A program made the translations under genes and the position numbers. DNA of 64,000 bases, from the NCBI RefSeq assembly GCF_000771225.1, contig NZ_JDTZ01000010.1:1-64000 (forward strand), read 5' to 3'. Positions 22,446-25,832 of this stretch are shown here, one piece after another (position 1 is the first letter of the stretch; each line of letters starts with the position of its first letter). The notes under the pieces are model-generated. The model worked only from the letters and a program-made list of their open reading frames with translations, had not been told where the DNA came from and did no database searches. The stretch is from Bifidobacterium pseudolongum subsp. pseudolongum DSM 20099 (GTDB taxonomy: Bacteria > Actinomycetota > Actinomycetes > Actinomycetales > Bifidobacteriaceae).

Positions 22446-23066
22446 ATGAGTGAGGACACAGAATTCCGCAAGACGGGGAGCGCCGCGCCCAACTTCGCGA
22501 TGATGGAACCGCGCGACCAGCTCAAGACGCTGCTGCGCGAGCATATGCACGACAAGCCGTTCTCGGAGCTCGCGCCGGTGACCTTTGACCACCGTGGCGC
22601 CGCGCTGATCGGGCACATCATGCTCGACACGCTGGAAGAGCAGGGGTATTCGATCGAGGACTTCGACGCGGTGGGGGCGCTGACGGCGGCCGCTGTGCCG
22701 ATGGTGTGTTCACTCATACATGCCGCCGCCTCGCGCGGCGAGGATCTGGACGGGTTTGTGATGGACTTCGTGTACCCGGCGATCAAAGGCCCGTCGATTG
22801 CCGGCAAGCGTGTGATCCTCGTCGATTCATGGCTTTCCGAAAAATCGTATGTGCAGACCTCGTCGCTCGTGACGTTGCGCAACGGCAACGAGTTGAGCCT
22901 CGACTTCGGCATCGTCGACGCGCAGGGCGCGACCGTGGTGGCCGTGGCCGCGCTGATTGGCGGCGTCGACATGGAAGAGCCGACGCTCAAGATCACCGAC
23001 CCTGTGACCGGCGACGCACATGAGACGCCGTTCGTGGAGGTCTTCCACGAATCGGACCTACACTAG
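22446..23066 (+). CDS. Phosphoribosyltransferase-like protein with altered PRPP loop
   Basis: The 206-residue protein has the type I phosphoribosyltransferase fold pattern of orotate phosphoribosyltransferases: GHIMLDTLEE, then GALTAAAVPMVCSLIHAA, then a Lys/Arg-bearing strand GKRVILVDSWLSEKSYVQTS where the PRPP loop should be. True enzymes carry two acidic residues followed by Thr-Thr-Gly; here only Asp is kept and the Thr-Thr-Gly is gone. It may be a non-catalytic relative or a PyrE-like paralogue. The start lies 33 bases after the stop of the P-type ATPase-like gene, so the two are probably co-transcribed. Confidence 0.65.
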   Translation: MSEDTEFRKTGSAAPNFAMMEPRDQLKTLLREHMHDKPFSELAPVTFDHRGAALIGHIMLDTLEEQGYSIEDFDAVGALTAAAVPMVCSLIHAAASRGEDLDGFVMDFVYPAIKGPSIAGKRVILVDSWLSEKSYVQTSSLVTLRNGNELSLDFGIVDAQGATVVAVAALIGGVDMEEPTLKITDPVTGDAHETPFVEVFHESDLH

Positions 23067-23070
23067 GCCT

Positions 23071-23176
23071 CCGCGCACTTTTTCTGCCCTGACGAAAAAG
23101 TGCGCGGCCAATGAGGGGCTATGGCCAAAAGTGCGAACTGGGGCTTCCACTTTTTTCGGCGCGTCGAAAAAAGTGG
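23071..23176. repeat. Direct repeat copy 1 (106 bp), two terminator hairpins
   Basis: This copy is nearly identical to 24088-24194, differing by one substitution and one inserted A. It contains two strong hairpins: a perfect 14-bp stem at its start (ccgcgcactttttc with its complement) and a 12-bp stem at 23147-23176 (ccacttttttcg arm). Both have T runs inside the arms on either strand, so each can act as a two-way terminator. The pair of repeats encloses the gene at 23185-24000. Confidence 0.9.
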
Positions 23177-23184
23177 AAGAGCCC

Positions 23185-24000
23185 CTACCTCACCACTTTC
23201 TTCAATCCCATCAAATGATGTTGCTGCACAACAGTGCCATGGATAATATCCAGTAATTGTGCTGGGTTTCGGAAATCTTCCACTGTGACGTAGATGATCT
23301 GCCAGCCTCTTTTCATTAATTCATTATGTTTGTTCATGTCCCTGCGCATCTGATCCACGTTGGCATGGTATGCACCCTGATACTCAAAGGCGATTTTGAG
23401 ATCCGGGTATGAGATGTCGAGATAGCACGCCCTACCCTCGAGTTGCACGCGGAAGTTGGCCACGGGTTTTCCGAATCCATGACGGATGAGGAACTCCGCA
23501 AGCAGGGCCTCCTGAGGTGAGTCGGTGTTCTCGATGAGGAACGGGATGGCCTCCATGCATTTCCTCTTGCCATGAAACCCCTTGAGGACTGTTGCATATT
23601 CGATGATGTCGTCCAACGTACTCACCTTTCGTTTTCTGTCTCGGCACGTGAAGTTGGCGGCAATCATGATCAAGGTGGTCAGTGGGCAGTGTTGGGCCAT
23701 CTGCGCCCAGCACACTTCCGGCCGCACAACCTCAAATCCGTCCTCCATATAGGTGAGGAGCGGGCCGCTCCACAGATGTGCATTTACGCCTTGTGTATGA
23801 GGCCTCTCGTCACGTTGCTGCGCGCTGACATGGAGCGAGAGCGGCTCCATCGTGCTGTTGGGGGCCGGGCTCCCCCAATACTCGACGGCGGTGCGGTGTG
23901 AAAAGACCGGGGTGTGCTTCATGTGGGGAAGCACCAGCTTTATCTTGCTCCGGATGTGTGAATGCAGTCGGTGTGCGTCGTCTCTCATGAACGATTCCAT
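23185..24000 (-). CDS. Putative endonuclease, DUF559/Vsr-like C-terminal domain
   Basis: The 271-residue protein has an N-terminal part (about 1-120) resembling AbiEi-like regions of actinobacterial endonuclease-domain proteins (VFSHRTAVEYWGSP). The C-terminal PD-(D/E)XK-like domain carries SPQEALLAEFLIRHGFGKP, CYLDISYPDLKIAFEYQG and a final GWQIIYVTVEDF strand. Likely metal ligands are Glu in SPQE, Asp in YLDISYPD and Glu in FEYQG, where most relatives have EYDG. The ATG at 24000 follows aaggagccc. Its DNA is less GC-rich than its neighbours, and it runs opposite to them. The gene is bracketed by a 106/107-bp direct repeat, like a cassette. Substrate and role (defence, repair or mobile cargo) are unknown. 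Confidence 0.75.
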   Translation of the reverse strand: MESFMRDDAHRLHSHIRSKIKLVLPHMKHTPVFSHRTAVEYWGSPAPNSTMEPLSLHVSAQQRDERPHTQGVNAHLWSGPLLTYMEDGFEVVRPEVCWAQMAQHCPLTTLIMIAANFTCRDRKRKVSTLDDIIEYATVLKGFHGKRKCMEAIPFLIENTDSPQEALLAEFLIRHGFGKPVANFRVQLEGRACYLDISYPDLKIAFEYQGAYHANVDQMRRDMNKHNELMKRGWQIIYVTVEDFRNPAQLLDIIHGTVVQQHHLMGLKKVVR

Positions 24001-24087
24001 ATTGGGCTCCTTCCAAGGGGTAAAGGGCCAATGTATGGGTGCCGTCATGGCTGAGGCAATCTGAACAGGCATATGTGGTCGGACGGT

Positions 24088-24194
24088 CCGCGCACTTTTT
24101 CTACCCTGACGAAAAAGTGCGCGGCCAATGAGGGGCTATGGCCAAAAAGTGCGAACTGGGGCTTCCACTTTTTTCGGCGCGTCGAAAAAAGTGG
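24088..24194. repeat. Direct repeat copy 2 (107 bp), two terminator hairpins
   Basis: This is the second copy of the repeat at 23071-23176, with an a-for-g change in the first loop and one extra A. It ends 14 bases before the start codon of the next gene, so it also forms that gene's 5' region. Confidence 0.9.
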
Positions 24195-24208: not shown

Positions 24209-24979
24209 ATGCATGAGCCGAATCCAATCGATATCGCAGCCAAAGCCTCCGGTGAGCCCCTATTCCGCGAGGTCGGCGTAGGGCCATGGGAGCAGGCCCA
24301 CCCCGGCGAACCGCGCCCGGACGATCCGCGCTTCGATCCAGACCTGCTCGATGAAGGCGACCGCCGCAATGTGCTCGACCGTTACCGGTACTGGACGGTC
24401 GAGGCGATCAAGGCCGATCTTGACGCGCGCGGCAGACACCCATTCGAGGTGGCGGTGGAGAACTGGACCCATGACTTCAACATTGGCTCCATGGTGCGCA
24501 CGGCGAACGCGTTCACCGCGAACCGCGTGCACATCGTGGGCCCGCACAAATGGAACCGCAAAGGCGCGCTGATGACCGAGCTCTACCAGCACGTCGTCAA
24601 CCACCCTTCGATCCAGGACCTCGTGGACGACTGGCATACGCGCATCGCCGCCGAGCGTGCAGATGCCGAGCGGCGCATCGCCGAGCTTGAACTGGCGCCG
24701 GGCGACCGGCTCGAACAGGCCCGGCACGAGCTGCGCATGGCGCAGCACGCCAAGATCATCGCGCTCGACATCGTGCCCGGAGCGGTGCCGATCGAGACCT
24801 ATGATTTTCCCGAACGCTGCCTCATGCTCTTTGGGGCGGAAGGCCCTGGCCTGTCGCAGAAAGCCATCGACCTAGCGGATGACGTGGTGTACATCAGCCA
24901 GTTCGGTTCGGTGCGCTCGATCAACGCGGGGGCCGCGGCCGCCGTCTCGATGCACGCGTGGATCAGCCAGCACGCGTGA
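24209..24979 (+). CDS. SpoU/TrmH-family RNA 2'-O-methyltransferase
   Basis: It transfers a methyl group from SAM to a ribose in tRNA or rRNA; the target is not evident. The 256-residue protein has the SPOUT knotted fold signatures: NIGSMVRTANAFTANRVHIVG (motif 1, with catalytic Arg), then LMLFGAEGPGLSQKAIDLAD (motif 2), and SINAGAAAAVSMHAW (motif 3). An insert of charged helix (about residues 150-190) separates motifs 1 and 2. The ATG at 24209 follows ggggcc; no strong Shine-Dalgarno site is seen. The repeat copy directly upstream supplies its leader. Confidence 0.9.
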   Translation: MHEPNPIDIAAKASGEPLFREVGVGPWEQAHPGEPRPDDPRFDPDLLDEGDRRNVLDRYRYWTVEAIKADLDARGRHPFEVAVENWTHDFNIGSMVRTANAFTANRVHIVGPHKWNRKGALMTELYQHVVNHPSIQDLVDDWHTRIAAERADAERRIAELELAPGDRLEQARHELRMAQHAKIIALDIVPGAVPIETYDFPERCLMLFGAEGPGLSQKAIDLADDVVYISQFGSVRSINAGAAAAVSMHAWISQHA

Positions 24980-25022: not shown

Positions 25023-25832
25023 ATGATTGAGATACGGGGCGTTACCAAGACATTCGGCTCCAACCGCGTGCTGGACGATGTGAGCTTCGTAGCCGCGAAC
25101 GGCACGGTCACCGGATTCCTGGGGTCCAATGGCACCGGCAAGTCCACCACGATGCGCGTGCTGCTCGGCCTGATCACGCCCAACCGTGGCACCGCGCTCA
25201 TCGACGGCGTGCCGTACACGCGGCAGGCGAGCCCGATGAGCCAAATGCGCGCTGTGCAACCGTTCCGCTTATTCGTACCTGCGCTCGCTCGCCTACACGA
25301 ACAACATCGCGCGCGTTCGTGTCGACGAAGTCATGGACCTGACCGGACTCGCCAGTGTGCAGAAGACCAAGGCGGGCAAATTCTCGCTCGGCATGGGCCA
25401 GCGCCTCGCAATCGCCGCGGTGCTGTTGGGGAATCCGAGGAACCTCGTGCTCGACGAGCCGGTGAACGGCCTCGACGCCGAAGGTGTGAAGTGGGTGCGC
25501 GACCTGTGCCGCAACTGCGTGGCAGATGGGCGCGCGGTGCTGCTCAGCTCGCCCTTGATGAACGAAGTGGCGCTCACCGCGGACAATCTGGTGATCATCG
25601 GCGAAGCCCGCATCCTACGCACCGGTACCGTGGCTGGTTTTGTGAAGGAACATTCGCGCCACCTGCTGTCGGTCGCCACGCCGGACGCGGAGAAGATGCG
25701 TGCGATGTTCGCCGGATCGACACGTACCAATTCGTGCGCCAGCAGGTCTCGCTCGAACAGGCGTACATGGAACTGACCCACGGGCATGCGCGCTATGTGG
25801 CGGCGCAGCCGCGGAACGGAGGTGTGCGATGA
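25023..25832 (+). pseudogene. ABC transporter ATP-binding protein, frameshifted
   Basis: The N-terminal part reads MIEIRGVTKTFGSNRVLDDV with Walker A GSNGTGKS near residue 38. Around 25255-25272 the frame shifts by one, after which AYSYLRSLAYTNNIARV, LGMGQRLAIAAVLLGNP and the Walker B segment LVLDEPVNGLDAEGV continue in the second frame. Near 25715-25722 it shifts back and ends QQVSLEQAYMELTHGH in the original frame. The parts together make one ABC-2-type drug or bacteriocin exporter ATPase. Two frame breaks make it a probable pseudogene unless they are sequencing errors. Confidence 0.85.

Follow-up and report, generated by a model that had tools for sequence, protein, structure and literature searches.

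A predicted AbiEi-like/EDxHD nuclease gene between near-identical hairpin repeats in Bifidobacterium pseudolongum: a candidate REPtron-like unit

Among described systems, RAYT/TnpA-REP genes with their REP/REPIN sequences combine a single gene with palindromes that both flank it and are dispersed (PMC3733652, PMC8049555, PMC8266576), and the RAYT genes are reported as inherited in place (PMC8049555). Two further described groups are relevant: the EDxHD homing endonuclease family, which includes I-Bth0305I (PMC3943268), and the large multidomain conflict protein MTES_1575, the namesake of Pfam family PF18741 (PMC3710099). The gene considered here lies in a 64-kb stretch of B. pseudolongum DNA (the window). 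Similar to REPtrons, this gene and others of its family are flanked by palindromes, the palindromes have dispersed copies, and the genes appear to be inherited in place. The main differences are the enzyme, which is an EDxHD/Vsr-type nuclease rather than the HUH Y1 transposase of RAYTs, and the repeats, which in the family span 25–219 bp (mostly >50 bp) and in one type, that of locus L302, contain repeated arms. A transposase search that covered PF01797 (HUH Y1) only matched none of 15 palindrome-bearing genomes and 5 of 14 control genomes. The REPtron features found are the flanking and dispersed palindromes, the window's own type being sparse, and the HUH Y1 transposase was found in none of the 15 genomes. 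Because its enzyme is unrelated to RAYTs, the locus is not a member of the RAYT family and would at most work like one.

The reading that we favour, with somewhat better than even confidence, is that the window contains a REPtron-like unit, in which an AbiEi-like/EDxHD nuclease unrelated to the RAYT enzyme is accompanied by its own flanking and dispersed palindromes. In such a unit, the nuclease would recognize its own palindrome and nick or cut it, and the palindrome would then be copied or converted between sites, which would keep the two flanks alike and seed the dispersed copies. This role would be the one that RAYT/TnpA-REP is thought to have for REP/REPIN, carried out by an unrelated enzyme. 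We infer that the nuclease binds, cuts or spreads the palindromes; the observed link between them consists in their association, in the dispersal and polymorphism of the palindromes, and in the sharing of palindromes within subfamilies.

The nuclease gene is on the minus strand (positions 23185–24000, 271 residues; the longest open reading frame extends to 24072) between two plus-strand neighbours, one at 22449–23066, which is matched in 112 of 112 genomes of the genus, and a SpoU-family RNA methylase gene at 24209–24979. These neighbours form the left and right edges of what is here called the slot. Two direct repeats, neither assigned to a strand, bracket the gene: R1 on its downstream side (23070–23176) and R2 on its upstream side (24087–24194). 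A single substitution and an indel of 1 base separate the two repeats (98% over 108 positions in blastn). Each contains two strong hairpins, with CACTTTTTTC/GAAAAAAGTG-type arms in R1, that fold on either strand at -44.5 to -49.0 kcal/mol and bear T/A runs. R1 and R2 score 112.3 and 115.9 bits, respectively, with a covariance model in whose training set both copies were included. The GC content is ~0.52–0.58 at the nuclease gene and mostly 0.62–0.70 in the surroundings. A preliminary description of this DNA had noted near-identical direct repeats with one substitution and one indel, two strong two-way hairpins in each repeat, and a gene opposite to its neighbours and lower in GC, all of which are confirmed.

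The first hairpin of the repeat has no further copy within the 64-kb window when up to three mismatches are allowed. Elsewhere in the genome, blastn yields short partial matches at three places, and the covariance model finds four further places above 40 bits. The repeat is nearly private to its gene and, with four further places only, is not the common genome-wide terminator that had been named as an alternative. In a broader form of this explanation, the function of the repeats, as paired two-way terminators, is to isolate a cassette of one gene; gene conversion keeps them alike, and recombination between them can remove the cassette. The T/A runs and the strong folding in both directions agree with this proposal, as does the presence, in the B. 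pseudolongum clade, of similar elements next to ordinary genes (phosphoglucose isomerase, trmD/rimM, ribonucleotide reductase and aldo-keto reductase). In the window's species, the dispersed set is small, with several places common to several genomes, and such a sparse, partly common set fits old terminator elements as well. The proposal is at odds with the four further places in the genome, with the flanking palindromes of some relatives, such as L021, that have no T-run, and with the survey of the slot described below, in which none of 77 other loci showed a single repeat. It also leaves without account the large dispersed families and the limitation of palindrome sharing to close proteins. 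We consider it unlikely, and a common terminator as the sole explanation was rejected, the element being sparse in the genome and not general across the family. The elements of the window may double as two-way terminators in B. pseudolongum. Insulation from outside transcription, as proposed in the preliminary description, is possible in the window but does not by itself account for the layout, since the family includes palindromes without T-runs (L021) and dispersed copies.

To assess the occupancy of the slot, the surroundings of the right-hand neighbour were surveyed at 80 named loci. The gap is no larger than 478 bp in 76 of these, one locus (L115) contains another gene, and three contain the nuclease gene, namely two strains of B. 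pseudolongum subsp. globosum and B. cuniculi. The gene stands out as a discrete unit, and it is missing from the slot in most species. Both repeats lie beside the slot gene in both globosum strains, and repeats are found on both sides in all four genomes that have the gene at the slot. In B. cuniculi, whose slot orthologue has 46% protein identity, a hairpin element is present on each side, the two copies being in direct orientation, 81% identical and largely unlike the window's repeats in sequence; a covariance model that was constructed with B. cuniculi left out detects these two flanks with E values of 6e-6 and 2.5e-5. The same model finds nothing at E ≤ 0.01 in the remaining 77 slot loci, and no site with a single repeat was found among them. 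The preliminary description had proposed that recombination between the repeats could add or remove the gene, with one repeat left without a gene as the site to look for. With both repeats in four of four gene carriers and no single repeat in 77 loci, the survey did not bear this proposal out, and gain or loss by that route is unproven. Other cargo between the same repeats had also been anticipated. In genome G058, two window-type elements in opposite orientation, ~4 kb apart, bracket the ribonucleotide reductase genes nrdF, nrdE and nrdI, and the same spacing is observed in three genomes (G058:C20:47908-52127, G000:C12:473021-477276 and G111:C12:45812-50022). This is an inverted pair of elements around ordinary genes and does not amount to an exchange of cargo at the slot itself. 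L115 (B. simiarum) was rejected as alternative cargo: its 2.2-kb gap is occupied by another gene (DUF5648, CAP domain), and no long direct repeats surround this gene. In seven Bifidobacterium loci (L095, L099, L103, L135, L138, L142 and L144), a family open reading frame lies a few kilobases downstream of spoU, a region that the nuclease family may favour.

The start of the nuclease gene is probably the ATG at 24000 rather than the codon at 24072. A Shine-Dalgarno-like GGAAGGAG precedes this ATG, and its assignment is favoured by two further strains: strain 2093B has an in-frame TAG immediately upstream of the corresponding ATG, the upstream part is out of frame in LMG 11569, and the 271 codons from the ATG are intact in the window, 2093B and LMG 11569. 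The dN/dS values of 0.11–0.15 among three orthologues (0.06, 0.07 and 0.15 for the neighbouring spoU) indicate that the gene is maintained under purifying selection.

The AlphaFold2 model of the 271-residue protein has a mean pLDDT of 94.2. Foldseek alone gives no match under an E value of 0.001 for this model, the best being the catalytic domain of I-Bth0305I at 6e-3. With VIA-align, this domain (3r3p_A) is also the best solved-fold match of the nuclease domain (Z 12.3, rmsd 2.6 over 95 residues), followed by a putative endonuclease from Neisseria (3hrl, Z 11.5) and Vsr (1cw0, Z 9.1). Residues 18–156 resemble residues 57–195 of AbiEi from S. agalactiae (Z 9.5 over 127 residues). Four residues, Glu164, Asp195, His212 and Asp221, are invariant across 58 family sequences, in what we take to be the order that gives the EDxHD enzymes their name. 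The fold matches bear out a protein composed of an AbiEi-like domain and a predicted EDxHD/Vsr-type nuclease, as the preliminary description had suggested in naming an AbiEi-like N terminus and a DUF559/Vsr-like nuclease. Apart from the shared catalytic fold and the invariant Glu, Asp, His and Asp, the locus differs from I-Bth0305I in that the gene is intergenic between two intact neighbours, is fused to an AbiEi-like domain, and has palindromes on both sides. AbiEi is the antitoxin of a type IV toxin-antitoxin system, and the window protein differs from it in carrying its own nuclease domain; no toxin family, AbiEii included, is found in either of the two neighbours, which are the SpoU methylase and a protein with no match over the cut-off.

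Profile searches of the window protein against Pfam and NCBIfam yield weak matches only. The match to PF18741, the DUF559-type MTES_1575 Vsr-like nuclease family with its large, multidomain namesake, is under the cut-off (E 6e-4, 20.3 bits). Family matches are present in at least 69 of 99 genomes searched, including the window's own. The family is chiefly chromosomal, as judged from the matches in 1 of 50,697 phage records and 5 of 72,556 plasmid records, all with <60% identity, and phage or plasmid cargo was rejected on the same counts. A role in defence had been suggested earlier; it is without support, as no PADLOC model matches the window protein (0 families at E ≤ 1). An insertion sequence or transposon with terminal inverted repeats was also rejected: the window has direct repeats and a nuclease-type protein, and the absent sites of the L302 type, described below, are imprecise.

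Matching flanks are common in the family. For each gene, ~450 bp upstream was compared with ~450 bp downstream at a threshold of E < 1e-5, which was chosen after a first look at 33 loci; the result also holds at 1e-10. A matching pair is found in 46 of 112 family loci versus 5 of 520 non-family control genes at E < 1e-5, and in 35 of 112 versus 3 of 520 at E < 1e-10. The 112 loci, which are part of the family matches listed, comprise 30 first-listed loci (15 positive), 80 further matches (29 positive) that for the most part follow the ranking, the final ones having been chosen from across genomes, and the loci of LMG 11569 and B. cuniculi, which were known to be positive before their inclusion. 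The controls were 548 open reading frames, of which 28 were removed as family members; an earlier control set gave 9 of 344, several of these being the nuclease family itself. Controls with at least 100 bp of non-coding DNA on both sides are positive in 3 of 146 cases. Thinning of the family to <60% identity leaves flank pairs at 37 of 83 loci. By group, pairs are present at 35 of 100 loci within the genus and 11 of 12 loci from other families of the order; the controls taken from the regions of these 12 loci are positive in 1 of 59 cases. The remaining 66 of the 112 loci lack a pair at E < 1e-5. Self-complementarity is seen in 34 of 46 upstream elements when 20 bp of padding are added, versus 34 of 448 random 150-bp windows. 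The elements are close to the gene, with the downstream copy a median of 14 bp past the stop codon. Tandem gene duplication as the origin of the similar flanks was rejected, since none of the 46 positives has a coding duplication on both sides.

Different protein subfamilies bear different palindromes. A palindrome type is common to 10 of 1035 locus pairs, each with at least 56% protein identity versus a median of 30%. Among positive pairs with at least 45% protein identity, 10 of 33 have the palindrome type in common, and L200 and L205, with 87% protein identity, do not. Judged from these sequence comparisons, either the palindromes would change faster than the proteins or the link between gene and palindrome would be loose. 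Regions from different species that surround palindrome-sharing loci are alike over most of 18–19 kb (tblastx matches, whatever their order), so the nuclease gene seems to be inherited in place rather than mobile. GTAG, the tag at one end of REP palindromes, is by eye present in some palindrome types (L302, L226 and L201) and absent from others, including that of the window. The palindromes of L009, L225, L226 and L302 have unrelated arms, but by eye they often agree in a centre resembling AAtGGCGGAAT or the complement of this sequence; this may be a shared signal for recognition or origin. A known structured RNA was rejected in the five loci scanned; the single Rfam match, in the L021 palindrome, is to a plant miRNA model and falls short of the gathering score, and it was taken as chance.

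Dispersed copies of 14 palindrome types were counted by hand as places listed beyond the two flanks in the own genome, with at most 40 candidates scored per genome, and range from at least 1 to at least 35. The highest counts are those of L225 (at least 35), L219 (at least 34) and L302, which in G058 occupies at least 31 places (at least 29 besides the flanks), with at least 13 in G111 and at least 10 in G000. Lower counts are observed for L265 (at least 17), L005 (at least 12), L201 (at least 10), L017 (at least 9), L009 (at least 8), L021 (at least 5), L226 (at least 4), L023 (at least 2), and L006, L026 and L262 (at least 1 each); 4 of the 14 types have one or two further places among the matches listed. 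The L267 palindrome is of the L021 type and was not counted apart. For the window type, G000, G058 and G111 have 4, 6 and 4 places, respectively, that exceed 40 bits and are distinct from the flanks, 7 of these 14 places having been used in building the covariance model, which reaches at most 37.3 bits in four comparison genomes. Among the matches listed, it is often the two flanks that resemble each other most, except in the L302 and L265 types; the L302 flanks are 74% alike, and a flank and other copies are up to 77% alike over the full length, again among the matches listed.

Copies of the L302 type are mostly 141–167 bp long with repeated arms, and 16 of 20 fetched copies have at least two arms in each direction. 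No exact L302-type arm lies outside the elements in the fetched loci (32,320 bp in total). Since 9 of the 20 copies are within a frame that runs for at least 100 codons without a stop, it is not claimed that all copies are intergenic. A short DUF559-like gene (L307, L310 and L313, at G000:C20:22152, G111:C6:68904 and G058:C5:37811; open frames of 172–176 codons) has L302-type palindromes within ~1 kb in all three genomes, and may be the partner of the palindrome where the L302 gene is absent.

AbiEi binds inverted repeats in its own promoter. The palindromes might likewise be binding sites of the AbiEi-like domain, such that the protein is an autoregulated regulator and the dispersed copies its regulon, an explanation with which the AbiEi-like fold (Z 9.5) and the placement of palindromes near the gene and elsewhere in the genome agree. 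We regard this as quite improbable: autoregulation does not need a copy near the stop codon, a repressor does not need a conserved nuclease active-site pattern, and the length and repeated arms of the L302-type copies, some of which vary between close relatives, do not fit it.

This variation was followed in G058, G000 and G111. The whole L302 unit of G058 (~1.45 kb) is missing from both G000 and G111; in its place, these genomes have 190 bp that show no match to it. The empty site contains no single palindrome, which contradicts loss of the unit by recombination between the repeats, as such recombination would leave one. Among ten L302-type copies of G058 compared, L341 and L350 are found in neither relative, L349 is missing from G111 and present in a shortened form in G000, and L343, L344 and L347 are common to at least one relative; the outcome for L342, L345 and L348 is ambiguous. 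The absent sites of this type are imprecise, and that of L350 keeps half an arm. At the L346 site, G058 has an L302-type palindrome, G000 has another open reading frame of 336 residues, and G111 has the same spacing. The 336-residue frame (L367:1088-2098) is AbiEi/DUF559-like by eye with no Pfam match at 0.01, and three tandem GAATTgTACGCA...TGCGTACAATTC palindromes lie directly downstream of it.

Two relatives lack the L302 unit, and the best solved-fold match is the I-Bth0305I catalytic domain (Z 12.3). Both facts are consistent with a further explanation, in which the palindromes are moved by something else and the nuclease gene, a free-standing gene of homing type, has them as its target and travels with them. 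We judge it improbable, as no HUH transposase was found in 15 genomes (PF01797 search only), the palindromes are common to closely related proteins only, which a passenger would not require, and the likeness of the gene regions between species is unlike frequent homing.

Returning to the REPtron-like reading, a more general proposal would be a second enzymatic origin of REP/REPIN-like repeats, with AbiEi-EDxHD nucleases in Actinomycetales each maintaining and spreading a private palindrome family, several per genome, independently of HUH transposases. We advance this tentatively, at somewhat less than even confidence. If true, the REPtron-like lifestyle would have arisen more than once, bacteria without RAYTs would have a candidate enzyme for their repeats, and a role would be suggested for the widespread DUF559-type gene group. 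The preliminary description knew of no account of the arrangement, and our literature search, mostly outside subscription journals, likewise found no description of palindrome-flanked DUF559/AbiEi nucleases. Beyond the right edge of the slot, the frame of an ABC-transporter ATPase (window positions 25023–25832) seems by eye to be broken near 25260, with the rest continuing in another frame at 25333–25776, and appears to be a pseudogene or a sequencing error.
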